Source: a virus
Strand: one strand, 5' to 3'
IMG/VR virus record: IMGVR_UViG_3300049846_000432
Coordinates: 1 to 22,089 of that record
DNA length: 22,089 nucleotides
Shown: one piece after another, positions 1-22,089 of the stretch
Position numbering within the stretch: position 1 is the first letter of the stretch
Layout of the letters: every line of letters begins with the position of its first letter
The notes under the pieces: model-generated
The model's database searches: none
What the model saw: only the letters and a program-made list of their open reading frames with translations
Told to the model about the DNA's origin: nothing
Program-made: the position numbers and the translations under genes

Positions 1-13
1 TAAATATACTGAG

Positions 14-21
14 TATATTTG
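14..21 (+). promoter_or_regulatory. Bacteroidota-type -7 promoter element
   Basis: The octamer TATATTTG matches the Bacteroidota -7 consensus TAnnTTTG and lies 36 bases before the first ATG. The expected transcription start would be near position 28. The matching -33 element would fall outside the window, so only half of the promoter can be judged. In AT-rich DNA such octamers also occur by chance. Confidence 0.45.
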
Positions 22-57
22 TAAAATATTTATTAATCGTTTAAAAATCATACAGAT

Positions 58-1119
58 ATGGACAATCAAAAATTAACAGTAAATGAAGAACAGGTTTTAA
101 ATTATCTAAACGATATAACATACCCTGTCGTAAAAACTAACATTGGAATAAATGTAGGTAAGCGTTCTCCTAAAACTGCTGCAAGTTGGGTTAATCCTAT
201 ACTTGAAAAATTAATATCAAAAGGTTTAGTTATAGAAATCACTGAAGGTAAAAAAACTACGTATATGTCAGCTACAAGTACTGCTATGAAAAACGAAGAA
301 CCTGAAATTTTAGGTGTAGAAGACAATTTACCTTCACCAGTTAATCAAAAAGTTGAAGAAATCGATGAGGTTGAAAAAGAAACTACTATTGAATTAGAAC
401 ATTTACAGCCTGCAGAAAAAATAGAAACTAAACAAAAAGTTTCTAAACCAAAAAATAATTCAGATTTTAATATCAATAAAGCTAAAAAATGGATTATTAA
501 AAAGGTAGAAGAGCTTATAAAAGATAAAAAAGAATGGGAAACTAATCGTAATTGTATCTCTAAAGCTATAGAATTATATAACGCTGAACAAACACCTATA
601 CCAGAACAATTATTTCAAAAAGTACTCCGTCCCGTATTAAGAAAATTTGACCCAATTCCAAAAAGACAAAAAGGCGAACCAAGACGAAATATGCTAAATA
701 GTATCAATAAAGAATGGGAGCAAAAAATTCTTAAAAAAGAATGGGAAATTATTAAAGAGGATAATACTAAAACAGAGAGAAGTAAAAAATCTCATTTAGT
801 TAAATTGTTAAAAGATTCAATAGCCAGTAAATTACCTAGCGAAAAATCTTTAAACTCTAATTCAGTAAAATCATTTATAAATACAGTAGTATATGAAGTC
901 ATAACTGGTAATAAACGCGAAATGAAAAACGATGGTAGACATTTCGAAGTAGGTCAAATCGTTCGTTACTTTGATAAACATAATGTTGAAAAAACTGGTA
1001 AAATTGTTCGTATATTTGAATGTAAAAACTTTTTTCAGCGCACGATAGTTGTTCTCGAGGAAGGTTCTACAAAACCTGAAATGAAAATTGATAGAAAAAT
1101 TATAAAAGTGATTGATTAA
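58..1119 (+). CDS. Hypothetical protein with winged-helix-like N-terminus and SH3/KOW-like C-terminus
   Basis: I do not recognise a named family. Residues about 5-75 read as a winged helix: a helix (NEEQVLNYLNDI), a helix-turn-helix stretch ending in ILEKLISKGLV, then a short beta wing. An acidic linker (about 76-130) and a lysine-rich helical middle (about 135-285) follow. Residues about 298-353 are beta-rich (VGQIVRYFDKH, TGKIVRIF), as in small SH3/KOW-like domains. The gene has its own promoter-like octamer upstream and a strong terminator downstream, so it is probably transcribed alone. DNA binding, for example as a regulator or a terminase small subunit, is inferred from fold impression and position just before the head genes. 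The start is the first ATG after the promoter. Confidence 0.7.
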   Translation: MDNQKLTVNEEQVLNYLNDITYPVVKTNIGINVGKRSPKTAASWVNPILEKLISKGLVIEITEGKKTTYMSATSTAMKNEEPEILGVEDNLPSPVNQKVEEIDEVEKETTIELEHLQPAEKIETKQKVSKPKNNSDFNINKAKKWIIKKVEELIKDKKEWETNRNCISKAIELYNAEQTPIPEQLFQKVLRPVLRKFDPIPKRQKGEPRRNMLNSINKEWEQKILKKEWEIIKEDNTKTERSKKSHLVKLLKDSIASKLPSEKSLNSNSVKSFINTVVYEVITGNKREMKNDGRHFEVGQIVRYFDKHNVEKTGKIVRIFECKNFFQRTIVVLEEGSTKPEMKIDRKIIKVID

Positions 1120-1143
1120 TAAATATTAGTTAGGATTAATTTT

Positions 1144-1179
1144 GAGCTCTGATTTTTAAAGTTAGAGCTCTTTTTTTTT
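1144..1179 (+). terminator. Rho-independent terminator after the first gene
   Basis: A perfect 7-bp stem, GAGCTCT (1144-1150) with AGAGCTC (1164-1170), encloses a 13-base AT-rich loop and is followed directly by nine T residues. It lies 25 bases after the stop of the 58-1119 gene and separates it from the head operon. Confidence 0.85.
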
Positions 1180-1180
1180 A

Positions 1181-1188
1181 TATATTTG
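1181..1188 (+). promoter_or_regulatory. Bacteroidota-type -7 element before the head operon
   Basis: TATATTTG matches TAnnTTTG and abuts the terminator T-run. The start codon of the next gene is 24 bases downstream, leaving a leader of about 17 bases. No clean TTTG -33 box is visible 19 bases upstream, where the terminator arm lies, so the promoter may be weak or need a phage factor. It is the obvious candidate for driving the head genes. Confidence 0.55.
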
Positions 1189-1211
1189 TTTTATTATAAA
1201 CTTCATACACA

Positions 1212-1979
1212 ATGATTAATCGACAAGGATTAAATTTATCGTCATTTTTAAATAACAATTTAGAGAAGTCAGACACTATTAAAATGGACAAAAAAGATTT
1301 TGTTGAAGAACATGAAAATCTTATACATGTTTTAAACTCGCCTTCTCATGAAGATGATAAAAAAGAGGCTAAAGAGCAAAAGCAAGAATTAGATAAGTAT
1401 TCTAAAAAAACAAAAGATATGAATAAACGTAGAGACCCTGAAGGTATAGAAAAATCTATAGGTTCAGACGGATTGATTGGCAACTTAAGTAGAGAAGAGC
1501 TTGTTAAATCTCATATAACTTGGAATTTTTCTAACAATAGTAACATTCCAATTTCTAAAAAAGGAGCTGATATCAAAGAGAAATTGATGTCTATTAAAGA
1601 ATTAGAAACTAGTGAAGCTTTAGAGCATAAAATAAAACTAGATGCATTAAAAACAAAAATAGGTACTGAACCTACTGAAGAACCTGATGAATATCAAACT
1701 GAAGGTTTAGATATAAGCATTTTACCTAAAACATATTCTTGGTCTGAAGTTTATAATCAAAAATGCGATTCAGAATCACAACCTATAGAAATGGCAAGTG
1801 AAGAAGTTAAGGAAGTTCAAAAAACAACTTCACAGCTTAAAGAAGATTATAATAGATGCGTAAGAAAATATATAGGTTGTCAAAAAGAAATAACATTAAT
1901 AGATACAATGCTTAAAAATTTAGATGATTCTAAAGTGTATAATTTAACAGTACATCAAGCATCAATATTAAAGTTCTAA
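1212..1979 (+). CDS. Hypothetical charged protein upstream of portal
   Basis: A 255-residue, highly charged protein with no signal peptide or membrane segment. Residues about 28-72 form a charged helical stretch (EEHENLIHVLNS, then EAKEQKQELDKY) of a kind I associate with small proteins near phage portal genes. The middle (about 95-185) is mixed, with an acidic proline-containing linker. Residues about 195-240 look coiled-coil. It is first in the head operon and ends one base before the portal ATG, implying co-expression and perhaps translational coupling. An accessory head or packaging role is inferred from position only. Confidence 0.75.
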   Translation: MINRQGLNLSSFLNNNLEKSDTIKMDKKDFVEEHENLIHVLNSPSHEDDKKEAKEQKQELDKYSKKTKDMNKRRDPEGIEKSIGSDGLIGNLSREELVKSHITWNFSNNSNIPISKKGADIKEKLMSIKELETSEALEHKIKLDALKTKIGTEPTEEPDEYQTEGLDISILPKTYSWSEVYNQKCDSESQPIEMASEEVKEVQKTTSQLKEDYNRCVRKYIGCQKEITLIDTMLKNLDDSKVYNLTVHQASILKF

Positions 1980-1980
1980 A

Positions 1981-3648
1981 ATGAGTGATTTAAAACTTCC
2001 AGATTCATTAGCAAGTTTGCAAGAATTGCAACTCAAATTAGAGGTGCAGAAAAGTCTTGTTTTGCAAAAAGCTATGAAATCAGACGACCCTAATAAAATA
2101 GTAGAAGCTGCTAAATATTTCAAAGATATAGAAAAGCGAGATGAATCGCAAGTAAAATCTTATATATTTGACCCTTGGGAGTTTTCACGTCAATTTGGTT
2201 ATAAAGATAAACCTACTTCACTATCTTATAATACATTAAGACGTATGGGAAGAACTCCCATTATAAATTCAATAATTACAACAAGAGTAGAGCAAGTAGC
2301 TGCATTTTCTGAACCTGCATACGACGAAAAAGGTGTAGGATTTATAATTAGAAAAAAGCAAGGTTATTTATCTAAAGAAGAACAGAAATTATCGAAGCAA
2401 GATGAAGCGCGTATAGAATGGATAACTGATTTTATTATCAACTGTGGTACTACAGGAAATTCTTGGCATGGCGATACGTTTGGAACTTTTTTACGAAAAA
2501 TCGTAAGAGATTCATTAGAATTGGACCAAATGACTTTTGAAGTAGTTAGAAATAGAAAAGGTATACCACAGGAATTTATTGCAACAGACGCTGCTACTTT
2601 TAGATTAGCAGATTCATTTGATTCAGATGAATATCGTAGAAGTCAAAGATTAGAAGTAAATGGTTATTACCCACAATACGTTCAAATATTCAATAATCAA
2701 CCAATAGCAGATTTTTATCCGTGGGAATTATGTTTTGGTATACGTAATCATTATACTGACGTTAAATTAAATGGATATGGCGTATCTGAACTTGAAAACA
2801 TTATTAATGTAATAACGTGGATGCTTTATTCAGATACTTATAATGGTAAATTCTTTTCTCAAGGTTCTGCACCTAAAGGTATTATAAAAGTATCGGGAGC
2901 GGTTAATGAAGCAAGACTAGCTGAATTTAGACAACAATGGATGTCTATGGTTGCTGGAGTACAAAATGCTTGGAGAACACCTGTAATGGAAGCTGAAAAA
3001 ATGGAGTGGATTGATTTACAGCGAAATAACAGGGATATGGAGTTCACTAAGTGGCAAGAATATCTAATTAAGTTATCATGCGCTAGTTATAAAATCGACC
3101 CAGCTGAAATTGGTTTTCCGATGAATGGTTCTTCTGAATCAAAACCTATGTTTGAAGGTAACAATGAAGCTAGATTAAAATATTCAAAAGATAAAGGTTT
3201 GCAACCGTTACTTAAATTAATTGAAAACAAACTCAATAAATATGTAGTAAACGCTTTAGATTCTAATTTTGAATTTAAGTTCGTTGGTCTTAATCCTGAA
3301 TCAGAATCTGAAATAGTTGATTTAGATATTAAGAAAGCTCAAAACTTTATGTCTCTTAAAGAAGTACGTAAAAAATATAATTTACCAGAACTTCCTGAAG
3401 ACGAAGATGATATAATTCTTAATCCATATTATTTCCAAATGTGGTCTCAAAAACAGGCTGCGAAGCAACAAGGTAATCCTGATAGTAACGAAGCTATGGC
3501 TGGCGAATTTCCTGGTCAAGGTTTTGATGAAGAAAAACAGCAAGATGTTAATTATCAAGACTTCATGAGTTCTTATGGTAAAGAAGATAAAGAAGACCCT
3601 TTCGCTAAAGCGTTTAATGATTTTTTAAGTAAAGAAAATAATGGATAA
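1981..3648 (+). CDS. Portal protein
   Basis: The portal forms the dodecameric ring at one capsid vertex through which DNA is packaged and ejected, and it nucleates head assembly. The 555-residue length fits the family. The region at about residues 290-400 is portal-like: a glycine-containing segment (GIIKVSGAV), a stretch built around WRTPVMEAEKMEWIDL, then FTKWQEYLIKLSCASYKIDP, as in many phage portals where a helix is followed by CxxYxIDPxEIG. An acidic, glutamine-rich tail (about 490-555) follows. It sits upstream of minor head protein, protease and capsid genes, the usual order. Its end overlaps the next gene by 8 bases. Confidence 0.9.
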   Translation: MSDLKLPDSLASLQELQLKLEVQKSLVLQKAMKSDDPNKIVEAAKYFKDIEKRDESQVKSYIFDPWEFSRQFGYKDKPTSLSYNTLRRMGRTPIINSIITTRVEQVAAFSEPAYDEKGVGFIIRKKQGYLSKEEQKLSKQDEARIEWITDFIINCGTTGNSWHGDTFGTFLRKIVRDSLELDQMTFEVVRNRKGIPQEFIATDAATFRLADSFDSDEYRRSQRLEVNGYYPQYVQIFNNQPIADFYPWELCFGIRNHYTDVKLNGYGVSELENIINVITWMLYSDTYNGKFFSQGSAPKGIIKVSGAVNEARLAEFRQQWMSMVAGVQNAWRTPVMEAEKMEWIDLQRNNRDMEFTKWQEYLIKLSCASYKIDPAEIGFPMNGSSESKPMFEGNNEARLKYSKDKGLQPLLKLIENKLNKYVVNALDSNFEFKFVGLNPESESEIVDLDIKKAQNFMSLKEVRKKYNLPELPEDEDDIILNPYYFQMWSQKQAAKQQGNPDSNEAMAGEFPGQGFDEEKQQDVNYQDFMSSYGKEDKEDPFAKAFNDFLSKENNG

Positions 3649-3916
3649 AAAATTCGATGAAATACAGAAATCTCATATATTTTCTAATTTTACTAATAGT
3701 ATAGAAGATATATTATCTAAAGGCGGTAAAGGTTCTGGTAGAAAAAAGTTAGAGAGTAAAACTCTTGAAGAGCTTAAGAAAATTTATTTTCATAATAAAG
3801 GCATAATAGAATCTACTAGAAGACAAGAAAATAGTCCTACAGCAAATACTATTAAATTAAGTAAAGAAAATAAATTAATAGAAGAAATAGTTAACAATAA
3901 AACATATAAACAATGA
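3641..3916 (+). CDS. Small basic protein with GGKGSGRK motif
   Basis: A 91-residue lysine-rich protein of unknown function. Its N-terminal third ends in a glycine-lysine stretch (LSKGGKGSGRKK, residues about 25-36), followed by predicted helices. It starts inside the portal gene (8-base overlap) and its TGA overlaps the next ATG (ATGA), so it is translationally coupled on both sides. The LSKG element resembles a recurring hydrophobic-x-Lys-Gly motif in the protease-scaffold protein, so it could be an internal head protein that is processed; this is speculative. Confidence 0.7.
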   Translation: MDKKFDEIQKSHIFSNFTNSIEDILSKGGKGSGRKKLESKTLEELKKIYFHNKGIIESTRRQENSPTANTIKLSKENKLIEEIVNNKTYKQ

Positions 3917-4044
3917 GCAAGTATTTTACAAATTTGAATGACTTTAATAACATTAAAGCCAATAATATATCTAAAGGATTTTTAAAATCAGAAGAAGAAT
4001 CTGATAAAAAACAAGACGATAAAGAAGAAAAAGAGGACAAATAA
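3913..4044 (+). CDS. Very small acidic protein (43 aa)
   Basis: The ORF starts at the ATG overlapping the previous stop as ATGA and ends at TAA, itself overlapping the next ATG (TAATG). The 43-residue product has a neutral N-terminal half with NISKGFLK, then a highly charged tail of Glu, Asp and Lys. Both junctions are tight, the main evidence that it is translated. No function can be assigned. Confidence 0.55.
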   Translation: MSKYFTNLNDFNNIKANNISKGFLKSEEESDKKQDDKEEKEDK

Positions 4045-4199
4045 TGCCAACAGTAAAAAAGGTACAATACAAAGATAGAGCACCATATTCTATAAATGAA
4101 TCTATAGAAAAGAAATTTCAGAGTAGTTATAATAACGCTTTGAAAAATATTTTTGTAAATTTGTCTAATACGATTGTTAAATTCAACAAACAAACTTAA
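4044..4199 (+). CDS. Very small basic protein (51 aa)
   Basis: The ORF begins with the ATG of a TAATG junction and stops one base before the next ATG. The 51-residue product is basic at the N-terminus (PTVKKVQYKDRAPYS) and helical toward the end (SYNNALKNIFVNLSN). Tight spacing on both sides supports translation. The function is unknown. Confidence 0.55.
   Translation: MPTVKKVQYKDRAPYSINESIEKKFQSSYNNALKNIFVNLSNTIVKFNKQT
4156..4163 (+). promoter_or_regulatory. Possible Bacteroidota-type -7 element before the AAA+ gene
   Basis: TAAATTTG matches TAnnTTTG and lies 37 bases before the ATG at 4201. It lies inside the preceding small gene, so the match may simply be coding sequence. A TTTG at 4139-4142 is only 13 bases upstream, shorter than the usual 19-base spacing. 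Confidence 0.25.
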
Positions 4200-4200
4200 T

Positions 4201-5742
4201 ATGTTCGACTTAATAGCAAAACATAATGCTGAGCAGGCAAAAAGAATAGCTGATAATTTTATAGAAAAATCTCAGTCTGACGAATTAGAAAAAGGTAAAA
4301 AAGCGACTATAGGCGAAGTTCGTGATTGGAAAGGCGAAAAGTGGAAAAAGCAAGTAGATGGCTGGGTTAGAATTTCTGATGGTAAAAAAACTGCTAAAAT
4401 CGAAGAACATGAAGTAGATAAACAAGACGCTAAAGATTTAGCTGAAAATAAAAAAGGCGGAGCTGAAAAAAATAAAGGTTTAGGTTTATTTTCAGACGAG
4501 CATTTATTTGCTAATGTAAGATTATCGCATACACCAGAATCACTTACAAGTTCTGTAAAAAACATTTTATCACAACCACAGTTAGATAAACCAGCTAAAG
4601 TAGTTCAATTATTCGAAAACGGTTTACATATTCACGAAATAGTTAATGTATCTGGAACGCCGCTTTCTGCTACTATTGATTATATCAATAAAGCTAAAAA
4701 AAGTGGTAGATTCAATAACGCTGCTTCAACTTCAGGTTCTATAAATCAAGAAACAAAAACAGAATTACAATTAGACGATATTGAATTACCAGAAGTATCT
4801 GTAGAAGATAGATGGCAATCATATCAACATTATGGTATGATGGTAGGGCTTAAGAGACAAAAAGCTATGTTTGCTTATGGTTCAGGTGGTGTTGGTAAAA
4901 CTTATGAACTTCTTGATAAAGAAAATGGCGTATTCTCACGTTTAAAATTACGTAAAGGCGACTTAAACCCAGTATTAGATGAAGTAGACGAAAATGGTCA
5001 AGCTTTAGATACACAAGGCGGCGATTCAGAAGATTCTATTGTAGGGTCTAATCCTCAAACAGGTGAAAGATTTTTGAAAAAAGATAAATACGATTATATT
5101 ACTATAACAGGTAAATTAAGTGCAACTAGAATGTTTGAATTAATGCAAGAGCATAATGGTAAAATTCTAGTATTTGATGATTGTGATTCTGTACTTACTA
5201 CTGGCGATGATGGTGTTAACGTATTAAAAGGTGCTTTAGATACTTCAGGTGATGGAACTATATCATGGGAAGGTAAAGGAACTTTAAAATCAGGTTATGC
5301 TGGTATAAAAGGTGCTAAAGCTGTAACTGATAAAAACGGTAAACCTTCAGGAGTTTATAATTTACCTAAAACTTTCAAATTTACTGGACAGGTAGTATTT
5401 ATTTCAAATTTACCAGATAATAAAGTACCACAACCTTTACGTTCTCGTTCATTAATGATTGATTTAACTATGAACCGCGAAGAAACTTTATCTAAAGTTA
5501 AAAGAATCGCACCATTAGTTAAATTTAAAGACCCTGATGGTAATATCATTAATGTTTCTGATGAAAATAGACAAAAAGCTGTTGATTTTATGGAGAAGTA
5601 TTTAAGTAAAATTAATGAAAGCGATTTGAATATGAGAACATTTAATAAAATAGCTTTAACTTATCAAACAATAGCTGAATTCGGTTCTAGTTTAGACCCA
5701 GAAAAAGTAGTTGCTGCTTCATTATTTCCACGTAAAAAATAA
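4201..5742 (+). CDS. AAA+ family ATPase within the head gene cluster
   Basis: A P-loop ATPase of AAA+ type, 513 residues from ATG 4201; a TTG nine codons upstream overlaps the previous gene and is less likely. Visible motifs: Walker A GSGGVGKT (227-234), Walker B ILVFDDCDS (322-330), a sensor-1 Asn in FISNLPD (N403), and arginines R414 and R416 in a PLRSRS finger-like segment. Before the ATPase core, residues about 132-172 read as a helix-turn-helix (VVQLFENGLHIHEI, then SATIDYINKAKKSG). Residues about 31-63 hold a tryptophan-containing module (IGEVRDWKG, then DGWVRISDGKK). Its place between portal and minor head protein suggests a role in assembly, packaging or as virion cargo; the target is unknown. 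There is no endonuclease or helicase signature. Confidence 0.85.
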   Translation: MFDLIAKHNAEQAKRIADNFIEKSQSDELEKGKKATIGEVRDWKGEKWKKQVDGWVRISDGKKTAKIEEHEVDKQDAKDLAENKKGGAEKNKGLGLFSDEHLFANVRLSHTPESLTSSVKNILSQPQLDKPAKVVQLFENGLHIHEIVNVSGTPLSATIDYINKAKKSGRFNNAASTSGSINQETKTELQLDDIELPEVSVEDRWQSYQHYGMMVGLKRQKAMFAYGSGGVGKTYELLDKENGVFSRLKLRKGDLNPVLDEVDENGQALDTQGGDSEDSIVGSNPQTGERFLKKDKYDYITITGKLSATRMFELMQEHNGKILVFDDCDSVLTTGDDGVNVLKGALDTSGDGTISWEGKGTLKSGYAGIKGAKAVTDKNGKPSGVYNLPKTFKFTGQVVFISNLPDNKVPQPLRSRSLMIDLTMNREETLSKVKRIAPLVKFKDPDGNIINVSDENRQKAVDFMEKYLSKINESDLNMRTFNKIALTYQTIAEFGSSLDPEKVVAASLFPRKK

Positions 5743-5753
5743 ATTTAAAAGAT

Positions 5754-5897
5754 ATGGACGCGAATATTAAACAAAAAGATTTAAAAGATATGTCTAATAA
5801 AGAATTAGACGCTTTGTATGCATCTTTATCTAGAGGTTGCGGCAATGGTGAACCTAATTCTGAAATGATTGAGATTGAAAAAATTATGTCTGCTAGA
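5754..5897 (+). CDS. Small hypothetical protein, apparently frameshifted in an A7 tract
   Basis: As written, ATG 5754 opens a 47-residue ORF ending at TAG 5895-5897, the only TAG stop among the genes here. The last residues (NYVC) look unnatural. Moving one base forward at the A run 5878-5884 gives a continuous reading to TAA 5929-5931, with plausible sequence IEIEKIMSARYEEYSSQSSK and normal codon use, stopping just before the next ATG at 5934. The natural product is therefore probably 58 residues, and the shift is either a mutation, slippage or a homopolymer-length error in the sequence. The N-terminus (DLKDMSNKELDALYASLSRG) is helical. The function is unknown. Confidence 0.55.
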
Positions 5898-5933
5898 TAT
5901 GAAGAATATTCTAGCCAATCTTCAAAATAAAAA

Positions 5934-9343: not shown

Positions 9344-9515
9344 TAGCGAATCAATATCTATGCTTGACGCTATAGATGACATAGAAGCTGATGTATTAAG
9401 CATTTATTTACATGGCTTTGATGAAAATGTTTCTGAAGAAGAAAAAGTTGAGAAACTGTCTGAAATGTTTAAAATTTCAACTCATGAAGTTGAGCAAATT
9501 ATAAAAGATGAATAA
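9330..9515 (+). CDS. Small acidic protein (61 aa)
   Basis: The ORF overlaps the end of the 828-residue gene by 14 bases and the start of the protease gene by 8 bases, an arrangement typical of coupled phage genes. The product is acidic and wholly helical by eye (SMLDAIDDIEADVLSIYL, then EEEKVEKLSEMFKISTHEVEQII). The last 35 residues could be a small helix-turn-helix-like unit. No family is recognised. Its position directly before the protease-scaffold suggests a head-assembly accessory. Confidence 0.65.
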   Translation: MQNNNSESISMLDAIDDIEADVLSIYLHGFDENVSEEEKVEKLSEMFKISTHEVEQIIKDE

Positions 9516-11157
9516 AAAAGATAATTTTAAGTTTTTCGTACCTCTTGAAATCGAAAAAGCAAAAAATGCTGAAGGTAAAGAAGTTATGAAAATTGCCGGA
9601 ATTGCTTCAACTATCGATAGAGATAGTGACGGCGAAGTACTTGACCCTTCGGGATTTGACTTAAGTTATTTTATGAATAACGGTTTTATAAACTGGCATC
9701 ATCAAGCTAAAGATAAACCTGAAGCAATTATAGGTGAACCTACAAAAGCAGAAATACGTAAAGAAGGTTTATACGTAGAAGGTGAATTATATCCCGAATC
9801 TAAATTAGCTCAACAAGTTTATGAATTAGCGAAAGGCTTAGAAAAATCTTCTAAAAGTAGAAGATTAGGTTTTTCAATAGAAGGTAAAGTTATAGAAAGA
9901 GATTTGTTAGACGAAAGATTTGTGAAAAAAGCTAAAATAACAGGTTTAGCCATAACACCTACGCCAAAAAATTCAAATACTATTTTAGATATTATTAAAG
10001 GAAATTTCAATGATTTTGATGATGAATTATTAGATGTAAATAATATCGACTCAAACGGCGGTTCTACAACTATATTAGATGTGTTAAGGCCTAATGGCGA
10101 TAGAATCACTGTCGATTCAAATTACAAGATTAAGGTAATATCTAAAAGCGCAAGTACTGAAAATGCAGGTATTTTATCACCCGCTTCTGTCGATGATGAT
10201 TTAAAGAACTTACAGAAAAGTACTGAAGAGGAACAAGAAACTGATTTAACAAAAAACAAAAAAAAGGATAAATTTGCAATAAATAAATCTGAAATTTTTG
10301 TTGAATTACTTAAAGCGACAGATAACGCAAAATTATCTAAAAGTATTATCAATAAAATAAAATTCAAAGACATGAGTAAACCTACAATTTCAATCGACCA
10401 ATTACAAAAAGCTCTTACTGATATCGGAGTTGATGTAGATATGGATTTATTAAAAGCCAACATTCAAGAAGAAGCTGAAAATAAAGAAAAAACTGAATTA
10501 GAAAAAGCTATTGAAGCTAAACAGTTAGAATTAGAGCAGCTTAAAACTAAACATTCTGAAATAGTTAAAGGTAAAGTAGAAGTAGAAGATTCTAAAAAAC
10601 CTGAAGTTTCAAATGAAGAAGAAGAGGAGGAAGAAGAAGAAACTGAAGAAGTAGAAAAAGGTAAAGATTCTAAAGCTACAGTTGCTGAAGTGAAAAAAGA
10701 GGTTGAAGAAAAAATGGAAGGTAAAAAATCTGAAGAAATTGAAAAAGGTTTAAATGATACTTTAGAAAAAAGTATAGACAGTAAACTTCAAAAAGGTCAA
10801 GATACTTTACTTACTAAGTTTGAAGAACTTTTTAAAGGTTTTACAGAAAAAATAGACGAAAGACTTTCTCATATTGAAAATCAACCAGGTCAAAGAAAAT
10901 CTGCTGCATCTCTTAATTTTATTGAAAAATCATTTGGCGGTGCTGATGATAAACAAAACGAAAATAAAACGTCTTTATCTTTATCAAGACAAAGACAGCA
11001 AATAAGTAATGTACTTTTAGCTAAATCAGGTATAGAAAAAGGCGAAACAAACGAATTTTATGCAAATGCTATGATGCAGTTTGAAGCTACAAGTTCTTTA
11101 TCAAAAGCTGTAATGCAAGACTTATATACAAACGAAAATATATTGATAACACAATAA
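9508..11157 (+). CDS. Prohead protease fused to scaffolding protein
   Basis: A head-maturation serine protease with a long scaffold-like C-terminus, 549 residues. Residues about 10-165 are the protease (HK97 gp4 / U9-S78 type): GIASTIDRDSDGEVLDPSGFD, the catalytic His in NWHHQ (H64/H65) and the nucleophile Ser in RRLGFSIEG (S123), close to the HK97 spacing. Residues about 260-510 are a charged coiled-coil with a poly-Glu run near 370-380, as in scaffolding proteins that fill the prohead and are then digested. The C-terminus (about 520-549) probably binds capsid protein. Seven hydrophobic-x-Lys-Gly motifs are spaced through the scaffold and may be cleavage sites. It lies just upstream of the capsid gene. 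Confidence 0.88.
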   Translation: MNKKDNFKFFVPLEIEKAKNAEGKEVMKIAGIASTIDRDSDGEVLDPSGFDLSYFMNNGFINWHHQAKDKPEAIIGEPTKAEIRKEGLYVEGELYPESKLAQQVYELAKGLEKSSKSRRLGFSIEGKVIERDLLDERFVKKAKITGLAITPTPKNSNTILDIIKGNFNDFDDELLDVNNIDSNGGSTTILDVLRPNGDRITVDSNYKIKVISKSASTENAGILSPASVDDDLKNLQKSTEEEQETDLTKNKKKDKFAINKSEIFVELLKATDNAKLSKSIINKIKFKDMSKPTISIDQLQKALTDIGVDVDMDLLKANIQEEAENKEKTELEKAIEAKQLELEQLKTKHSEIVKGKVEVEDSKKPEVSNEEEEEEEEETEEVEKGKDSKATVAEVKKEVEEKMEGKKSEEIEKGLNDTLEKSIDSKLQKGQDTLLTKFEELFKGFTEKIDERLSHIENQPGQRKSAASLNFIEKSFGGADDKQNENKTSLSLSRQRQQISNVLLAKSGIEKGETNEFYANAMMQFEATSSLSKAVMQDLYTNENILITQ

Positions 11158-11205: not shown

Positions 11206-12720
11206 ATGTTACAAAACAATTTAGGCGTAAGTCTTCAAGACTACCAAGGCGGTAATTACGATGGACAAGCATTATTTGATAATGCTAATGTATCGGCTGA
11301 AGAACTTTCTGAATTGAGTAAAGCTTTAGAAGCTGGTTCACTTACTGGACGTAGCGTTGCAGATTCAACAACTGCAAGTGGTGCTCCTTTAAAAGTTGAA
11401 TCTCTTGAGAATACTTTAAAGGTTCTTACTTTTAAAGAAAGCGATATTCAATTTTGGAAAAGAATACCTAAACTTCCAGCTTATAATACAGTTGAGGAGT
11501 TTAATCAATTAGCTTCTTATGGTACAGAAGCAGGCGTATTTACAAATGAAGGAGAACTTCCACGTGAAGAAGATTCATTGTATGTACGTAGAGCTGAAAT
11601 CGTGAAATTCTTAGGTGTTACTAAGATTGTTTCACACCCTATGCAGCTTGTAAAAACACACATAGGTTCGATCGTTCAACAAGAAATCAAAAATGGTACT
11701 TTATTCTTGTTAAGAAAAGCTGATAGAGCTTTAATGTACGGTGATTCTAATATCATCCCGCAAGAATTTAATGGATTCTTAGCTCAGCACAAAAAAGCTT
11801 GGAATAACTATAACGACTATATGAATAGCGAAGTAGTTATCGACTTAAGAGGTAAAACTCTTAAAGAGGCTAACATCGAACAAGGCGCATTATCGATTAT
11901 CTCTAACTTCGGTCAAGCGAATTTGTTAATGGCTCCTCCAGTAGTTCTTTCAGATTTTGTTAAGAATTTCTACGAAGCTAAATTCATTCAACCAAATACT
12001 CCTGCTCTTACAGCTGGTGTAATGGGACAAAGAGTTCAAAAATTCCAGTCTCAATATGGTGAAATCGAGTTAGGTTATGATATTTTCTTAAATGCTAACC
12101 CACCTCGTAAAACTACAGATGCTGCGACTCATACTCAAGCACCTGCTGTACCAGTTGCAGATGGCGTTGCTCCAACAGCTACTCCTGCTGATGCTGCTTT
12201 TACAAAATTCAATACTGCCGGAGATGCGGGTGATTACTACTATGCAGTAGCAGCTAAAAATAGATTCGGTGAATCTACTTTATTAGATATTAATGCTGGT
12301 GTTTTAGTATCAGTAGCGTTAAACGATGCTACTGATTTAAAATTCACAGCTGGTGGTGGTGCATTCCCAGCTACTGGATTTGTAATTTACCGTTCTAAAA
12401 AGAATCCTGCTGGAACTATTGCACAGACAGAACTATATCCTATATTCGAAGTATCAGTTGCTGAATTAGGCAGCGGTTACGATGGAGGTGCTGCTGGAAT
12501 TATCCGCGATAGAAACAGATTCTTAGCTGCTTGTAATCAAGCTATTTTAACTCAATCTGATGATGAGGTATATAGCTTTAAACAACTAGCTCCATTAATG
12601 AAAATGGATTTAGCTGTATTATCACCAGCAACAAGATTTATGATTCTTATGTATGGTACTCCAATGTTATACGCACCTAAGAAAATGGTACGTTACGTAA
12701 ATATTGGTAGAGAAGTTTAA
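11206..12720 (+). CDS. Major capsid protein with Ig/FN3-like insertion
   Basis: This is the HK97-fold shell protein, 504 residues. After a short N-terminal arm (about 1-50), the segment VLTFKESDIQFWKRIPKLPAYNTVEEFNQL resembles the N-arm to E-loop region of SPO1/T4-type capsid proteins (pattern LTxxxxDIxFxxxIxxxPAxxTVxxxxQ). Residues about 304-425 are an inserted alanine- and threonine-rich linker plus a beta-sandwich-like domain (GDYYYAVAAKNRFGES, then GFVIYRSKK), as in Ig/FN3 folds displayed on capsid surfaces. Codon choice differs from neighbours, with more GTT, ATC and CGT, fitting high expression. The gene is followed by a strong terminator, and its leader is A-rich (TTTTTAAAAG before the ATG). 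Confidence 0.9.
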   Translation: MLQNNLGVSLQDYQGGNYDGQALFDNANVSAEELSELSKALEAGSLTGRSVADSTTASGAPLKVESLENTLKVLTFKESDIQFWKRIPKLPAYNTVEEFNQLASYGTEAGVFTNEGELPREEDSLYVRRAEIVKFLGVTKIVSHPMQLVKTHIGSIVQQEIKNGTLFLLRKADRALMYGDSNIIPQEFNGFLAQHKKAWNNYNDYMNSEVVIDLRGKTLKEANIEQGALSIISNFGQANLLMAPPVVLSDFVKNFYEAKFIQPNTPALTAGVMGQRVQKFQSQYGEIELGYDIFLNANPPRKTTDAATHTQAPAVPVADGVAPTATPADAAFTKFNTAGDAGDYYYAVAAKNRFGESTLLDINAGVLVSVALNDATDLKFTAGGGAFPATGFVIYRSKKNPAGTIAQTELYPIFEVSVAELGSGYDGGAAGIIRDRNRFLAACNQAILTQSDDEVYSFKQLAPLMKMDLAVLSPATRFMILMYGTPMLYAPKKMVRYVNIGREV

Positions 12721-15597: not shown

Positions 15598-16259
15598 TGA
15601 GTAATCAAATAATAATACCGGAAATAACTTTATTTAAAATACTAGAGACTATAATAAAATTTATAGAAATAGATTTTAATAATACTACAGATGAAAATAA
15701 AACAATGCTGTTTAAAATATTTGGTGATAATCAAGTAGGTAAGTTTAATTTTTACGAACAGGCGAAAGATATATTTCTTAGAGACAATGCGCATCCTAGA
15801 CAGATAGCAGTAAGAATGATGTTTGATGCTCAACGCGCTAATTTACCTACAATACATATATCTTTACCAAGTGAATCACCAGGCGCAGATGGTATCGGCG
15901 TAGATGAAGGGTATCAAGAGAACGATGTAGATACTGAAAATAGAACAGTTAATAAAACTTATACTAGAATGTTTGATACGCAATATAATTGTATTATAAG
16001 CTCAGATAATTCTACAGAGGTATTATTGATTTATCATTTATTAAAATCTATGTTAATAGGTATTTTCGACACTATGGAGTTTTCAGGATTAAGAAATCCT
16101 AAATTATCTGGTCAGGATTTACAAATTAACAGCGATATTGTGCCTCCACATATATTTACGCGGGGTGTAGGTATAAGTTGCTCGTACGAACAAACAGTAT
16201 CTAACGTTCAGCAAGAGAAGTTTATAGAAACATTTAAGCTTATACATAGTATAAGTTAA
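15597..16259 (+). CDS. Putative tail terminator / tail-completion protein
   Basis: A 220-residue protein last in the neck group and immediately before the sheath unit, where myophages usually encode the tail terminator. It starts with helices (EITLFKILETIIKFIEIDF), then has an alpha-beta middle with MFDTQYNCIIS and STEVLLIYHLLKSMLIGIF, and beta strands near the C-terminus (GVGISCSYEQTVSNVQQEKF). That order (helix, beta meander, helix) fits terminator proteins. Assignment depends on position and secondary-structure impression. Confidence 0.55.
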   Translation: MSNQIIIPEITLFKILETIIKFIEIDFNNTTDENKTMLFKIFGDNQVGKFNFYEQAKDIFLRDNAHPRQIAVRMMFDAQRANLPTIHISLPSESPGADGIGVDEGYQENDVDTENRTVNKTYTRMFDTQYNCIISSDNSTEVLLIYHLLKSMLIGIFDTMEFSGLRNPKLSGQDLQINSDIVPPHIFTRGVGISCSYEQTVSNVQQEKFIETFKLIHSIS

Positions 16260-16270
16260 ACATAAAATTT

Positions 16271-16278
16271 TAAATTTG
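16271..16278 (+). promoter_or_regulatory. Bacteroidota-type -7 element before the tail genes
   Basis: TAAATTTG matches TAnnTTTG and lies in the 26-base gap before ATG 16286. Its expected start site would fall almost on the ATG, so a transcript from it would be leaderless or nearly so. No TTTG -33 box is seen at the usual distance. It may serve the sheath, whose ATG is 195 bases downstream. Confidence 0.4.
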
Positions 16279-16285
16279 TATTAAT

Positions 16286-16474
16286 ATGAATATACAACAA
16301 TTCACACAAAAGTTCGGTTTTTCGCAAAGAGATACATTTGCTGCTGAAAAAATGTATTCAGGTTTAGAAAAAAATGAATCTGATTGGATTAAAGAATTAA
16401 AGGGAAAATTCTCTTTTAACTTTACTGAAGAAGATAAAAGTAAAAATAATTCACGTAAAAATAAAGCAGAATAA
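16286..16474 (+). CDS. Small hypothetical protein before sheath (62 aa)
   Basis: A 62-residue helical protein (TQKFGFSQRDTFAAEKMYSGLE, shown here by its ends TQKFGF and KMYSGLE) with a charged lysine-rich tail. It is coupled to the sheath by a TAATG overlap and preceded by a promoter-like octamer. Its lack of cysteines and transmembrane segments argues for a soluble accessory. No family is recognised; a tail-assembly role is inferred from position. Confidence 0.65.
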   Translation: MNIQQFTQKFGFSQRDTFAAEKMYSGLEKNESDWIKELKGKFSFNFTEEDKSKNNSRKNKAE

Positions 16475-18114
16475 TGGCAACAGTAGTAACATTTGGTAAT
16501 AGAAATATTATAGAACCAGGAGTTTATTCTCAAATTAAAGCTAACGTTAGTTCTAATCCTACACCTTTTTCAACAGGTAATGTATTAATTATAGATACAG
16601 GAGAAGGCGCTGGTTTTGGTGGTGGTTCTGGTATTAGCGGAGATATAGCTAATGGTATCGATTCAGTTTACGGTTTCGATAATCTATCTGAATTTAGACA
16701 ATTCGTAAGAGGTGGTTTACTTTGGGACTTAGCTGAATATTTATTCATTCCAGTAAATGGAGCGCAAGGTGTACCAAAAATATTTTTAGTAAAAGCTGCA
16801 ATAACTACAGCTGCTAAAATTACTTATACATTTACTGCTGGTGCTAATGGTGGTACATTTGCTGTTAGATGTAAAAATGAAGGTACTGCTGGAAACGGTG
16901 TTTTAGGTGGAGTAGGTGATACTAAAGTAAGAAAAGGTTACGCTGCTAATCTTAAAACAGGAGTTATTGATAATGCTAAATATTATATAGAATTTACAGA
17001 AGGTACTTTCAAAGGTTTAGATAGCGATAACGACCCTTACGATGGACAAGCTGCTTTACTTTGCAATCCTATAGTTATAGCTCGTTCTCCTGAATTTATT
17101 TCTATAAATGAACTTATAGATTGGGCAAAAGGTGATTATTCATTTAATGCTAGATTTGAATTAGATGCAACTACAGCTGTAATAGGTACAGGTGATTTAG
17201 TTGTTGGAGATTATACTGCTAATAATAGTATTAAATTAGCATCTGGTGGAACAGACGATTATTCATCTATAGCATACGACTCTGTATTAGCTTCAATAGG
17301 TGAAGTTGATTATACATTCGTATTATCGTTAAAGAATGCATCTAATGCGCAGGGAGTTGAAAATACTAAATTATTATATCACATAACGCAAGAAGCTGAA
17401 TTTAAGAAATTTATGTTCGTAGGTGGTGGTAATAATGAATTAGCTTTTGACCAAGCTGGTGGTTCTATTGAGATAGCTCAATATTTTGATTCAGCTTACG
17501 CTGTAGTATGTCATTCAGGTTTTAAACAAAATGTTCAATTTTCTGCTCAAAAGAAAATTAAATCATCATTATATCATGCAGCTTTAGTTTGTGGAAGACT
17601 TGCGGGTTTACAACCTCAAACTTCTGGTACATTTAAAACTCTTAGAGCTAAAGAATGGAATCATCAATTAACTCAGTCTCAAAGAGAAATAGCTTTACAA
17701 GCTGGTGTATTACATAACAGATATGTACCTAATTTAGGATATGTTATAAATCAAGCTATTAATACGCTTCAGAAAAATACACAGTTAATAAATCCAGACG
17801 GAACATCGGCTGAAATATCAGTTATGAGAATAGCTGAACAATTAAATAAAGAACTTGTATTAAATATGCGACCTATATTTGTAGGACAAAATTTAAACAC
17901 AGCTTCACCAGCAGACGTTAAGGCTTGGATGGAAGGTTATTTAACTTTAAAAACTGCTACTAGAACTCAAGATAATTTAATTATCCGTTTTTCTAATGTA
18001 TCGGTTATACAAAAGCAAGATTATTACGAAATTTCGTATAACTTTGTACCAAATAGCCCTCTTAATAAGTTATTTATAACTGGATTTATTTTAGACGCAA
18101 ATTTAACAGCATAA
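16474..18114 (+). CDS. Contractile tail sheath protein
   Basis: The sheath polymerises around the tail tube and contracts to drive it into the host. The 546-residue length is usual. The N-terminus (RNIIEPGVYSQI) has the 'PGVY' start typical of sheath proteins. The C-terminal ~100 residues show the conserved domain: RPIFVGQNLNTASPADVKAWM, then RTQDNLIIRFSNVSVI and DYYEISYNFVPNSPLNKLFI. A glycine-rich stretch (GAGFGGGSGISG, about 46-57) and a beta-rich inserted domain (about 105-270) lie between. It is followed by a homing endonuclease, then the tube gene, which normally follows the sheath directly. Confidence 0.92.
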   Translation: MATVVTFGNRNIIEPGVYSQIKANVSSNPTPFSTGNVLIIDTGEGAGFGGGSGISGDIANGIDSVYGFDNLSEFRQFVRGGLLWDLAEYLFIPVNGAQGVPKIFLVKAAITTAAKITYTFTAGANGGTFAVRCKNEGTAGNGVLGGVGDTKVRKGYAANLKTGVIDNAKYYIEFTEGTFKGLDSDNDPYDGQAALLCNPIVIARSPEFISINELIDWAKGDYSFNARFELDATTAVIGTGDLVVGDYTANNSIKLASGGTDDYSSIAYDSVLASIGEVDYTFVLSLKNASNAQGVENTKLLYHITQEAEFKKFMFVGGGNNELAFDQAGGSIEIAQYFDSAYAVVCHSGFKQNVQFSAQKKIKSSLYHAALVCGRLAGLQPQTSGTFKTLRAKEWNHQLTQSQREIALQAGVLHNRYVPNLGYVINQAINTLQKNTQLINPDGTSAEISVMRIAEQLNKELVLNMRPIFVGQNLNTASPADVKAWMEGYLTLKTATRTQDNLIIRFSNVSVIQKQDYYEISYNFVPNSPLNKLFITGFILDANLTA

Positions 18115-18120
18115 TTTATT

Positions 18121-18840
18121 ATGAATCAAATCTGTTACATATATAAAATTCTTTGTTTAACTAATGGTAAAATTTATATTGGTTCAACAAATAATTTTGA
18201 AAATCGTAAAAAAGTGCATTTAAAATCATTAAGAAGTAACAATCATACTTCTAGATATTTACAGAATGCATATAATAAATATGTTATAAGAAATTTTGAA
18301 TTTTATATTTTAGAACATTGTGATTCAGAAAATAGATGGGCGAGAGAACAGTTTTATATCGATAGTTTACAGCCAGAATTTAATGTTTCAAAAAATGCTT
18401 TTGGCGGTGGTACATTTTTTAATGAACCCTGGAATAAAGGAAAGAAAATGTCTAATCAATATAAAGAAAATGTATCTAAAGGAACTAAAAAAGCTATGCA
18501 AGACGAGTTTGTAAAACAAAAACAATCTCAATCTATGAAAGGTAGAACCCCTTGGAATAAAGGTAATAATACATCAGAAGAAACTAAATTAAAACAGAAA
18601 TATATTCAGTCGAATAGAAGCTGGAATAATAAAATATCTGAATCTAAAAAAGGTAAACCTAATATTAACGAAAGAAAAGAAGTTATTAGATACTGCTCTG
18701 ATTCGGGAGTTGATATTAAATATTATTGTAGTACTTTTGTAGCTGCTGAAGATAATAATATTAAATCTGAACGAAAAATACAGCGTTTGTGCAGATTACA
18801 CGACAAAGGTAAAATAACTGGTTTTAAATATAAAAATTAA
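18121..18840 (+). CDS. GIY-YIG homing endonuclease (free-standing)
   Basis: A 239-residue mobile endonuclease that cuts DNA at a specific site and promotes copying of its own gene. The N-terminal GIY-YIG domain (about 1-95) shows YIYKI (6-10) and YIGST (19-23), with R29 and E76 in the catalytic positions. Basic NUMOD3-like repeats follow (NKGKKMS, MKGRTPWNKGN, SKKGKPN), and the C-terminus (RKIQRLCRLHDKGKITGF) resembles a NUMOD DNA-binding element. It sits in the 6-base gap after the sheath and 5 bases before the tube gene. It disrupts no reading frame, so it is free-standing rather than intronic. Confidence 0.92.
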   Translation: MNQICYIYKILCLTNGKIYIGSTNNFENRKKVHLKSLRSNNHTSRYLQNAYNKYVIRNFEFYILEHCDSENRWAREQFYIDSLQPEFNVSKNAFGGGTFFNEPWNKGKKMSNQYKENVSKGTKKAMQDEFVKQKQSQSMKGRTPWNKGNNTSEETKLKQKYIQSNRSWNNKISESKKGKPNINERKEVIRYCSDSGVDIKYYCSTFVAAEDNNIKSERKIQRLCRLHDKGKITGFKYKN

Positions 18841-18845
18841 TAAAT

Positions 18846-19328
18846 ATGGCAAATAAAGTGCTCACTGCGCCCCTTGCAATTATTAAGGTAAACGGCGTTG
18901 CTGTTGGTAAAATGAAAAATATAAGAATACAGGAAAATATCAGAAGAGGTAGAGTTTCTGGTTTAGGTCAATTAACACCTGACGAATTACCTGCTTTAGA
19001 ATGGTCAGGTACTCTTTCTTGTGGATTTTATAATATTACTTTTGATGTATCACAATTACCTAAAGCTATTGTACGAAAAGTAAATACTTTAGATGAATTT
19101 GTAGATACAGTTCTTTTACAAGAAAATGGTGTTCAAGTTGATATTATGAAAAAAGTAGCAGCTTCATTACCTGACCCTGTAACTGGTATTATACCTTCTC
19201 AACTTCAAATATTTGCTTCTGTTAAAGGATGCTTTATTACACGTGAAGGTTTTGATATTCAAGAAGGTCAAATATCTGGTAAAGATGCTGATTTCGATTA
19301 CACTACACCAATATTATATCCTTTATAA
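18846..19328 (+). CDS. Tail tube protein
   Basis: A 160-residue protein that should stack in hexameric rings to make the inner tube within the sheath. It begins with an APLAIIKVNGVAVGKMKNI strand pair, then RRGRVSGLGQLTPDELPALEWSG-type sequence (read in parts as RRGRVSGLG and PALEWSGTLSC), the beta-sandwich pattern common to myophage tube proteins with a conserved 'G-L-G-x-x-x-P' turn. Length and position after the sheath both fit. The only interruption of the sheath-tube pair is the inserted endonuclease gene. Confidence 0.85.
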   Translation: MANKVLTAPLAIIKVNGVAVGKMKNIRIQENIRRGRVSGLGQLTPDELPALEWSGTLSCGFYNITFDVSQLPKAIVRKVNTLDEFVDTVLLQENGVQVDIMKKVAASLPDPVTGIIPSQLQIFASVKGCFITREGFDIQEGQISGKDADFDYTTPILYPL

Positions 19329-19338
19329 TAAATAACAC

Positions 19339-19695
19339 ATGGAAAAACAAATTAAACTTAAGGTTCTCGGAAAAGATTGCATCGTAAAATATCCTAATGT
19401 AGGACAAGTTTTAGAGATAGAGTCTTTAAAATCTGCTTTAACAAACGGTACTTACGGTGATTTAGTAAGAATGAATACACGTAGTTCAAATCAGGCTTTA
19501 GATATAGCTGATACAATAGCTACATTTACTGTACTTATACCAGAATTTCGTGAAACATTAAATGTAAAATCTTATACAGAATTAGACCCATTTGATGCTA
19601 AAAAACTGGTTGTAGTATATAAAAATAAATTTTTTCCTTGGTATAACGAAATAAACAAGGAGTTACAAAGTTTTGGTGAAGACGATGAAGAATAA
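19339..19695 (+). CDS. Tail assembly chaperone, short form
   Basis: A 118-residue protein between tube and tape measure genes, the slot of the gpG-like tail assembly chaperone that coats the tape measure during assembly. It has a beta-strand N-terminus (KQIKLKVLGKDCIVKY), helices (VGQVLEIESLKSAL, then FDAKKLVVVYKNKF) and an acidic end (FGEDDEE). Its TAA at 19693-19695 is followed in the same reading frame by a second conserved domain, so a longer form may exist (see the next gene and findings). Confidence 0.75.
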   Translation: MEKQIKLKVLGKDCIVKYPNVGQVLEIESLKSALTNGTYGDLVRMNTRSSNQALDIADTIATFTVLIPEFRETLNVKSYTELDPFDAKKLVVVYKNKFFPWYNEINKELQSFGEDDEE

Positions 19696-19709
19696 AAAAA
19701 AAGTTTTGG
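19667..19709 (+). repeat. Direct repeat flanking the chaperone stop codon
   Basis: AAAGTTTTGG occurs at 19667-19676 and again at 19700-19709, exactly 33 bases apart and in the same reading frame (both copies encode Ser-Phe-Gly). The TAA of the short chaperone and an A9 tract (19694-19702) lie between or overlap the copies. Joining the two copies would fuse the upstream and downstream chaperone domains in frame. Confidence 0.75.
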
Positions 19710-19998
19710 GAGTGAATTAAAGGATTTTATCTTAAGATGGAATCAGTTATATCCTTTTGATTATCTTTATCGTAAAAAATACAATATACCATTTGGAAGT
19801 CCTGAGCATAGGGCTTCCAATTTTATTTTAATGGCTACTGATTTGAAAGAAGATAAGATGATAGTAAAATATTTAGAGGAAATCAGATTAGCTAGTGAAG
19901 ATGGTTTTAATTCTAATAATAAATCTTCTAAAATGTCTCAAAGCGAGATTGACGAAGAATTTGATAATTTAGATATAGAAAAATTTAATTCTCAATAA
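19685..19998 (+). CDS. Tail assembly chaperone second domain, reached through recoding or a frameshift
   Basis: Between the short chaperone and the tape measure, the frame ending at TAA 19996-19998 is open from 19696 and encodes a conserved-looking domain: ELKDFILRWNQLYPFDYLYR, then KYNIPFGSPEHRASNF, and an acidic helical tail. The WRxxYP...RKKYxIPFGSxxHR pattern is like the downstream part of phage tail chaperones, usually made by frameshifting. No ordinary start lies before this domain in its frame. ATG 19685, overlapping the previous gene by 11 bases, opens a reading (MKNKKK) that enters the domain only if one A is gained, or the ribosome slips -1, in the A9 tract 19694-19702; the product would then be 104 residues. 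Alternatives are a fused product by bypass or readthrough, or a sequence error. Confidence 0.6.
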
Positions 19999-20000
19999 AA

Positions 20001-21989
20001 ATGTCTACTAGAAATACGCGCATAGATGTAGAGGTTAATACACAGAACGCAAAAAATCAGCTTAGAGAGATTGCGAATGAAGCTACCCGTGTAAACAATC
20101 AAATAAATAATCAGCGGGGTTCTAGTACACAATCTTCAAGTTCACAAAGTTCTGATTCTCGTTCTTCAAGTTCACAAAGTTCTGATTCTCGCTCTTCAAG
20201 TTCACAAAGTTCTGATTCTCGTTCTTCAAGTTCACAAAGTTCTGATTCTCGTTCTTCAAGTTCACAAAGTTCTGATTCTAGAGCGCAAGATGTTATCAGC
20301 GCTATATCTCAAATGAGACAGCACTCTGATAAAAAAGCTCAAGATATAAGTAGACAATTTAATGATTTAAGGTCTGCTAATATTAGAGAATACGAAGAAT
20401 ATTCTAAAAAACATGCTGCGGGTCAAATATCAGACGATGAGTTTGCGAATTATAAAAAGGGTTTTTTTGAAAATCAGACTCAATCTTTTCAAGATGAAAG
20501 AGACGAATTATCTGAAAATCAAAAAACGACAAATGAACTTATACAGGAGTTAATAGATAAACAAGACGCTAAAACTAAAGCTGAAGTAGAATCTTCTCAA
20601 AGAGATTCTAAAGAATTTAAAGGCGAGGGTATATTAAAAAAATTATTTTCAAAAAGGTCTGCTTTAATGGAGGCGCGCATGAATGCAACTTCTGACGCTG
20701 AATTAAAAGATATAAATAGACAATTAAATAGAGTAAATAAAGATATTTCAAAAAAATCTGGTGGTAGTGGTTCTATAGCAGATACTATAACAGCCGGTGG
20801 ACAATTTACTGAATCAGTTATTTCAGGTAACGCACCTCAAGCTACTTTAGGTTTATTAAGTAAAGCTGGTCCTTGGGGAATGGCTGCAGCAGCTGTTTTA
20901 GCAGCAACAGCTGGCGGTATTTTTGCGACTAATAAAAGAGAAGATGCAATATCTGGTATAACTTCTTATAGAGCTTTAGGTGATAGAGATGTTATAGGTA
21001 AATCTGTTATAGATACTAATATTAGTAGATATAACATGACGCCAGAAGAATTTATTAATAAACGAAAAGAGTTATTATTATCAAGTGGTAAATATCAAGC
21101 AGGTTCTGTTCAAAATACTTTAGATGCTGTTAGATTAGAAAAAGGTTACGGTATAGATAACGTATCGGGACTATCAACAAATGAAAGACAGGATAAATAT
21201 GCTAAAAGCACTTCAGATAATATACTTGAAATGCTTAATGTATTAGGTCAGATACGCGATGGTTCTATATCTGCTGAAGATTTAACTTTAGCTAATGAGA
21301 AATCTCAGTTAATGTATAGACTTCAATCAAGTCAAGTTTCAAGACAAGAAACTTTCGATAATAAACAAGTACTTGGTTTAATGACAGCGTTTGAAAAATT
21401 AGGCGGTGAAGGTAAAGACCAAAGAGCTGGTGATTTTATCGAAGGTACTTTAGGCGCATTGCGCGAAGGTGGTAGTCAAAACATGATGATGTTAAAACAT
21501 CAATTTGCTTTACAAGCGCACCCTGAATTAGCTGACGACCCAGCTGCTATAGCTAGAATTATAGAAGAAGGTACTGACCCTAGATATATAACTTCTTCTC
21601 TTAAAGGTTTAAAAAATATGTTTGGCGGTAATAAACAAGCTGAATATTTTGGTTTTAAAGAATTTTTTAAAGGTTCTGGACTTACAGCTTCTATGCGAGA
21701 AAAAGTAATGCAATTAGCTGGTAGTGAAGAAGGTTTAAAAAATATAATGGGATTAGGTATAGATTGGAACAAGAAAGACTTTAATCAATCTGAAGCCGAT
21801 AAATATGCTTATGATAAAACGAGATTAAGTGACGAAATGTTAGCAGAACTTAAGAAAGCTACAGTTGATTTATTGATGAGTTTTAAAAAATGGACAGCTG
21901 AACCTATAGATGTTAATGTTAGAAATAAAGATAAAAATCTTTCAGGACCTGGATATGGGGTTTTAACAAATACTGTAACTGGAAATTAA
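20001..21989 (+). CDS. Tape measure-like protein
   Basis: A 662-residue protein directly after the chaperone genes, the tape measure slot. The N-terminus (NTQNAKNQLREIANEATRVN) is the coiled start common to tape measure proteins. Residues about 44-93 are five copies of a Ser-Gln-Asp-Arg decapeptide encoded by 30-bp repeats. Long charged helices follow (about 94-260), then a hydrophobic Ala/Gly segment (GPWGMAAAAVLAATAGGIF, about 290-308) that could insert in the host membrane at ejection. The remaining ~350 residues are helical. At about 1.5 angstrom per residue this would specify a tail of roughly 100 nm. Its stop lies 9 bases before the next ATG. A split tape measure continuing downstream cannot be excluded. 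Confidence 0.75.
   Translation: MSTRNTRIDVEVNTQNAKNQLREIANEATRVNNQINNQRGSSTQSSSSQSSDSRSSSSQSSDSRSSSSQSSDSRSSSSQSSDSRSSSSQSSDSRAQDVISAISQMRQHSDKKAQDISRQFNDLRSANIREYEEYSKKHAAGQISDDEFANYKKGFFENQTQSFQDERDELSENQKTTNELIQELIDKQDAKTKAEVESSQRDSKEFKGEGILKKLFSKRSALMEARMNATSDAELKDINRQLNRVNKDISKKSGGSGSIADTITAGGQFTESVISGNAPQATLGLLSKAGPWGMAAAAVLAATAGGIFATNKREDAISGITSYRALGDRDVIGKSVIDTNISRYNMTPEEFINKRKELLLSSGKYQAGSVQNTLDAVRLEKGYGIDNVSGLSTNERQDKYAKSTSDNILEMLNVLGQIRDGSISAEDLTLANEKSQLMYRLQSSQVSRQETFDNKQVLGLMTAFEKLGGEGKDQRAGDFIEGTLGALREGGSQNMMMLKHQFALQAHPELADDPAAIARIIEEGTDPRYITSSLKGLKNMFGGNKQAEYFGFKEFFKGSGLTASMREKVMQLAGSEEGLKNIMGLGIDWNKKDFNQSEADKYAYDKTRLSDEMLAELKKATVDLLMSFKKWTAEPIDVNVRNKDKNLSGPGYGVLTNTVTGN
20131..20280 (+). 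repeat. Five 30-bp tandem repeats inside the tape measure gene
   Basis: Five adjacent 30-base units start at 20131, 20161, 20191, 20221 and 20251. Apart from the first two bases and the last base they are identical, with the common core TCTTCAAGTTCACAAAGTTC followed by TGATTCT. Each unit encodes a serine-rich decapeptide (SSSSQSSDSR), so gain or loss of a unit keeps the frame. Confidence 0.97.
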
Positions 21990-21998
21990 TAATATCGT

Positions 21999-22089
21999 AT
22001 GAGTAATTTAATAAGAATATTTTATAGAGATAGTGATATTAAAACTATTAAAGAGCTTTTTGATAAAGATAAAATAATCAATATATCTG
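21999..22089 (+). CDS. Partial gene after tape measure, runs off the window
   Basis: ATG 21999 opens a frame that stays open to the window end, giving at least 30 residues (MSNLIRIFYRDSD, then IKTIKELFDKDKI). The alpha-beta start gives no family. Position suggests a tail or baseplate-hub gene, but too little is present to assign it. Confidence 0.55.
   Translation, partial: MSNLIRIFYRDSDIKTIKELFDKDKIINIS

Follow-up and report, generated by a model that had tools for sequence, protein, structure and literature searches.

Near-complete synonymous loss of GATC, probably driven by host restriction, in the structural module of an SPO1-like phage

The avoidance of restriction sites by phages has been known for decades, and what is added here is a further instance with clear turnover in one lineage. 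Phage K lacks GATC, which was reported as evasion of Sau3A (PMC6532042), fRuSau02 also lacks it, in that case reported as evasion of host restriction (PMC5618024), and a Streptococcus bovis phage without GATC appears as a citation in PMC7113391. In the study of Rusinov et al. (2018), the compositional bias of GATC was below 1 in 46/46 phages whose hosts have a GATC restriction endonuclease (REase), with 45 below 0.8, and a raised fraction of near-eliminated sites was found in non-temperate phages only (PMC6286503). GATC systems or methylation also occur in Bacteroidota according to the literature, including an MboI-like system in Prevotella intermedia (PMC5608340) and a GATC motif detected in each of the five Bacteroides fragilis group species that were studied (PMC10333322).

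The window, i.e. the whole stretch of DNA analysed (positions 1..22089; 22,089 bases), is the structural module of a myovirus of SPO1/Herelleviridae-like type and is depleted in GATC throughout. Its plus strand encodes a portal protein (1981..3648; phrog_12, E 1e-54), a protein matching a family of unknown function (4201..5742; phrog_1250, E 2.3e-23) that an earlier note, made by reading the sequence, had labelled AAA+-like, a head maturation protease with a scaffold-like C-terminal part (9508..11157; phrog_1028, E 4.7e-50), the major capsid protein (11206..12720; phrog_752, E 5.3e-80) and the sheath protein of a contractile tail (16474..18114; phrog_279, E 5.8e-30). Directly after the sheath gene lies a profile match to a GIY-YIG homing endonuclease (18121-18840). 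A plus-strand gene at 20001..21989, whose product has Ser-rich repeats and gave no family match in profile searches, probably encodes the tape-measure protein, as judged from its position and the assignment in the earlier note. The portal, protease, capsid and contractile sheath genes are homologous to those of SPO1-like phages and stand in order, and tblastn gave hits to SPO1-like and Kayvirus-type Herelleviridae phages, to which the portal and capsid are homologous, and to Bacteroides DAC phages. By these two proteins, the nearest isolates are Chryseobacterium phage MA9V-3 (49% identity in the portal) and Bacteroides phage DAC19 (41.6% in the portal, 51% in the capsid). Since a Shine-Dalgarno-like motif precedes only 1/19 starts and the isolated relatives infect Bacteroides and Chryseobacterium, the host is probably a Bacteroidota bacterium.

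GATC occurs once in the window, at 11670-11673, in the sequence context TTCGATCGTT; it lies within CGATCG in the capsid gene and spans the Ser-Ile codons TCG|ATC. This site is private to the window, the closest relative (L002) having TCT GTA at the same place. The expected number was 61.0 under a maximal-order Markov model and 59.3 from mononucleotide composition. In 300 codon shuffles of the 19 CDS, which changed neither the proteins nor the codon usage pooled over these genes, 45.6 +/- 4.7 (SD) sites were expected with a minimum of 32 (Poisson P(<=1 | 45.6) = 7e-19), and the expectations by codon phase of 27.5, 15.1 and 3.1 compare with 0, 0 and 1 observed. Elimination was defined as a compositional bias (observed/expected, O/E) of less than 0.1 where 15 or more sites are expected, and GATC in the window lies well below this value, at 1/61 (0.02, or 2% of expectation) by the Markov model and 1/45.6 by codon shuffling. 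Every degenerate hexamer that contains GATC and has enough expected sites was depleted, which indicates that GATC itself is the avoided unit. The next most depleted palindrome, CTAG, stands at 39/65 (Markov), and GGCC, CCGG, GCGC, GTAC and CATG are retained with 3, 6, 29, 53 and 23 copies, respectively. Among candidates for a second avoided site, TGWCA (8/27 observed/expected), CTNAG (22/43) and CATG (20/32) showed mild deficits only and were rejected. TAAG was also discarded as an avoided word, being low under the Markov model (86/176) but not among the lowest tetramers under codon shuffling; its deficit mostly tracks codon use. The earlier note, working by eye, had found one GATC at this very position where tens would be expected, had put the G+C content at about 31% (computed, 30.4%) and had listed the same five palindromes as present, all of which agrees with the exact counts. 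Compared with the Markov model, the codon-shuffled control and all other tetramers, as that note had proposed, GATC had the lowest z of all 256 in both tests; its count was nowhere near the codon-shuffled expectation, nor were most tetramers equally depleted.

The depletion is synonymous. Asp is encoded by GAC in 24/24 cases before a codon starting with C, compared with 79/394 (20%) elsewhere, and Arg before TCN is encoded by CGT, CGC or AGG in 12/12 cases and by AGA in none, AGA making up 177/235 (75%) of Arg codons in contexts other than Ser-TCN and Ile. Likewise, none of the 26 Gly codons before TCN is GGA. Both the Asp and the Arg pattern had been pointed out in the earlier note, and its individual examples hold at the codon level: R414-S and R416-S of the AAA+-like protein (so numbered if ATG 4201 is its start) are written CGTTCT and CGTTCA, and the R-S pairs of the tape-measure repeats CGTTCT or CGCTCT. 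Taken with the fates of aligned sites in relatives, these codon choices show that sites were lost by substitution while the protein was kept.

Relatives were recovered, and a family tree built, on the basis of the major capsid protein, giving 95 related loci of at least 7 kb each, including the window and two isolates. Over these loci GATC O/E ranged from 0 to 1.5 and was below 0.1 in 31 (this and the other per-locus counts take in some near-identical contigs and are not counts of independent events); many loci of similar G+C have values near 1. The elimination of GATC occurs beside that of other 4-bp palindromes: CTAG was below 0.1, on a minimum of 15 expected sites, in 27/77 loci, and the same level was reached by CCGG in 9 loci, CATG in 6, AGCT, CGCG and GGCC in 4 each and ACGT in 1. 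Of the 240 non-palindromic tetramers, a single one (CCTC) fell below 0.1, in one locus. With this one exception elimination is confined to palindromes, and it therefore bears the signature predicted by Type II restriction-modification. At the extremes, a 97.6-kb relative (L108) has 0 GATC sites where 464 are expected, and a 95-kb relative (L087) has 484 where 481 are expected. Other long contig stretches gave 0/248 (L013), 9/173 (L002) and 23/250 (DAC19), and the sole further relative from a portal search (L112, portal 74% identical) 0/17. In L062, 107 of 373 expected sites (0.29 overall) are fairly evenly spread, and this even, intermediate density suggests that loss or regain proceeds via scattered point mutation and not block exchange.

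Avoidance has changed repeatedly along this lineage. On capsid trees, at least 11 changes between low and high GATC states were counted with 78 rows and a mixture model, or 12 with 95 rows, and 13-14 changes were counted for CTAG; no association between gain and loss of the two sites was detected among independent pairs, which are too few for a test. L002 is the closest full relative of the window (capsid 81% identical), and the two agree at 0.42 of fourfold-degenerate third positions, compared with 0.37 if independent. As their synonymous sites are thus nearly saturated and both nevertheless hold GATC at 2-5% of expectation, selection has been sustained or recurrent, and the avoidance is no frozen accident of ancestry.

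It is proposed that GATC was lost under selection exerted by Type II restriction enzymes of the host that cleave it (DpnII/MboI/Sau3AI-like), a reading to which we assign a probability of about 0.88, the enzyme class and the host being the parts of it that we infer. Host restriction of GATC was also the explanation put forward in the earlier note, and it is the best supported, the loss being palindrome-specific, synonymous, genome-wide in relatives and repeatedly switching. For the further suggestion of that note, that such a system may be common among the hosts, the support comes from the literature on GATC systems in Bacteroidota. Host enzymes of this type would remove phages with unmethylated GATC sites, and point mutations, mostly synonymous, would replace the sites with GACC, GATT and other words. 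Once hardly any sites were left, the enzyme would hardly cut, and the phage would need no methyltransferase or base modification of its own against that enzyme. In hosts without the enzyme sites would drift back, to be lost again when it was next met; a patchy distribution of GATC systems among hosts would explain the patchy avoidance among phages. The capsid profile, searched across bacterial genomes, matched in two bins only, Sulfuricurvum and Desulfobacterales. The Sulfuricurvum MAG bin, which holds L041, the one avoider linked to a bin, gave no DpnII-family, MutH/Sau3AI-family or D12 methyltransferase match; this bin may be incomplete or the contig misbinned, and the negative result counts against host restriction with low weight.

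Mismatch repair directed by Dam and MutH is a gammaproteobacterial feature. An escape from such Dam/MutHLS-type repair, or from cleavage by MutH, has been proposed to account for the absence of GATC from phiX174, in which the addition of sites lowered the mutation rate, although its authors themselves regarded the cause as unclear (PMC5014478). For the window this explanation is very unlikely: the isolated relatives infect Bacteroidota and the window is nearly devoid of Shine-Dalgarno motifs, both of which point away from a Dam/MutH host, and the lineage has also eliminated CTAG, CCGG, GGCC, CATG and AGCT, none of which plays a part in MutH repair.

Erosion by mutation, in which methylated GATC (through 5mC or error-prone copying of modified sites) would decay without selection, would be compatible with the modest excess of GATT in the window (157 compared with 123 under codon shuffling). 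A single class of mutation would have favoured it, but several were seen. GACC, which requires T to C, is enriched 2.3-fold in the window and was the most frequent replacement in 3/4 pairs compared; in L108 and L087, which share about 67% nucleotide identity where alignable, 37 aligned L087 sites correspond in L108 to GACC (8), GATT (4) and many other words. The change of Arg from AGA to CGT or CGC takes two substitutions, and mutation pressure by itself could hardly bring about 98 kb down to 0 sites, since new ones keep arising. Erosion without selection is therefore considered highly improbable.

A similarly slight probability is given to a GATC-cutting nuclease, or a methylation-linked system, encoded by the phage itself and forcing the loss of sites. 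Most of the genome lies outside the window, and in two strong avoiders, L088 and L095, there is a methyltransferase of the D12 class, which may or may not act on GATC; both points would leave room for such a system, and the second also counts against host restriction as the cause. However, a search of the window and of 24 related records found no DpnII-family nuclease, and few records have a methyltransferase. The survey of methyltransferases and nucleases in related records stands under the label ALTERNATIVES. D12-class (Dam-type) enzymes were present in 3/45 related records, two of them those avoiders, N6/N4 methyltransferases in 2, and C5 methyltransferases in none of the 45. Because methyltransferases are so rare in related records, modification by the phage is not the general answer of this lineage to GATC restriction, and the D12 and C5 figures favour the suggestion in the earlier note that sites were lost rather than modified. 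The converse idea, that a phage methyltransferase accounts for the retention of GATC in some relatives, was not supported, as most of those in which GATC is normal have no such enzyme. Finally, composition, codon-pair bias or chance acting on an unselected tetramer is refuted by the 45.6 sites still given by a shuffle that keeps protein and codon usage, and by the normal GATC of relatives of broadly similar composition.

Host restriction thus remains the preferred reading, and under it sequence alone would indicate that an uncultured phage has been under restriction pressure from GATC-cutting hosts. With their repeated switching, the roughly 95 related loci could serve as a natural system for timing the loss and regain of sites and could be useful for predicting the restriction systems of hosts. 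Taken further, the set of eliminated 4-bp palindromes in this presumed Bacteroidota SPO1-like lineage may be a fast-changing record of the restriction systems of recent hosts. In this proposal, to which we give even odds, GATC and CTAG come and go on separate branches, with no linkage detected between the two, and do so fast enough for their state to be used in inferring the recent host repertoires of uncultured phages.

Among known systems, phiX174 (PMC5014478) resembles the window in that GATC is gone, or nearly so, though many sites would be expected, and differs from it as a small ssDNA enterobacterial phage whose link to mismatch repair is an unlikely cause here. Phage K and other Kayvirus members of the Herelleviridae share with it the same tetramer and its near-total loss (PMC6532042, PMC5618024), as well as the SPO1-type contractile-tailed build with homologous portal and capsid. 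The host of the window is probably a Bacteroidota bacterium, whereas Kayvirus infects Staphylococcus; the window retains 1 site and Kayvirus 0, and in the wider lineage of the window avoidance is absent about as often as it is present. As in the cases of Rusinov et al. (2018), a palindromic 4-bp site has fallen below 0.1 by synonymous elimination (PMC6286503); the host and REase are known in those cases, whereas here the host is a presumed one and the turnover of avoidance is mapped on one family tree.

The elimination of 4-bp palindromes (observed/expected ratio below 0.1 with at least 15 expected) extends to words other than GATC among the capsid-related relatives: 27 of 77 loci have eliminated CTAG, nine have eliminated CCGG and six CATG, and AGCT, CGCG, and GGCC have each been eliminated from four. 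The loci affected include L006, L008, L009, L022, L045, L058, L088, L095, and L108, among others, and at least three such palindromes have been lost from the same phage in some relatives.

In the window, TGWCA and CTNAG are mildly under-represented relative to codon shuffles (8 observed vs 27 expected and 22 vs 43, respectively), and GGCG is in excess (54 vs 22). A GIY-YIG/NUMOD3 homing endonuclease gene, identified by profile match (18121-18840), lies immediately past the tail sheath gene and ahead of the next structural-module gene, and at the start of the tape-measure-like protein stands a nearly perfect repeat of 10 residues, rich in Ser (SSSSQSSDSR; 20001-20300).

D12-class methyltransferases are encoded by the two phages represented by L088 and L095, one in each (L114, G025:35172-35828; L115, G028:118898-119527). 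Since the searched locus of both phages contains no GATC, the D12 enzyme may have another specificity or serve another purpose. Intermediate GATC ratios (0.09-0.33) were found in a closely related group (L074, L075, L080, L083, L084, L101-L104, and L109), in which sites are possibly midway through loss or regain.
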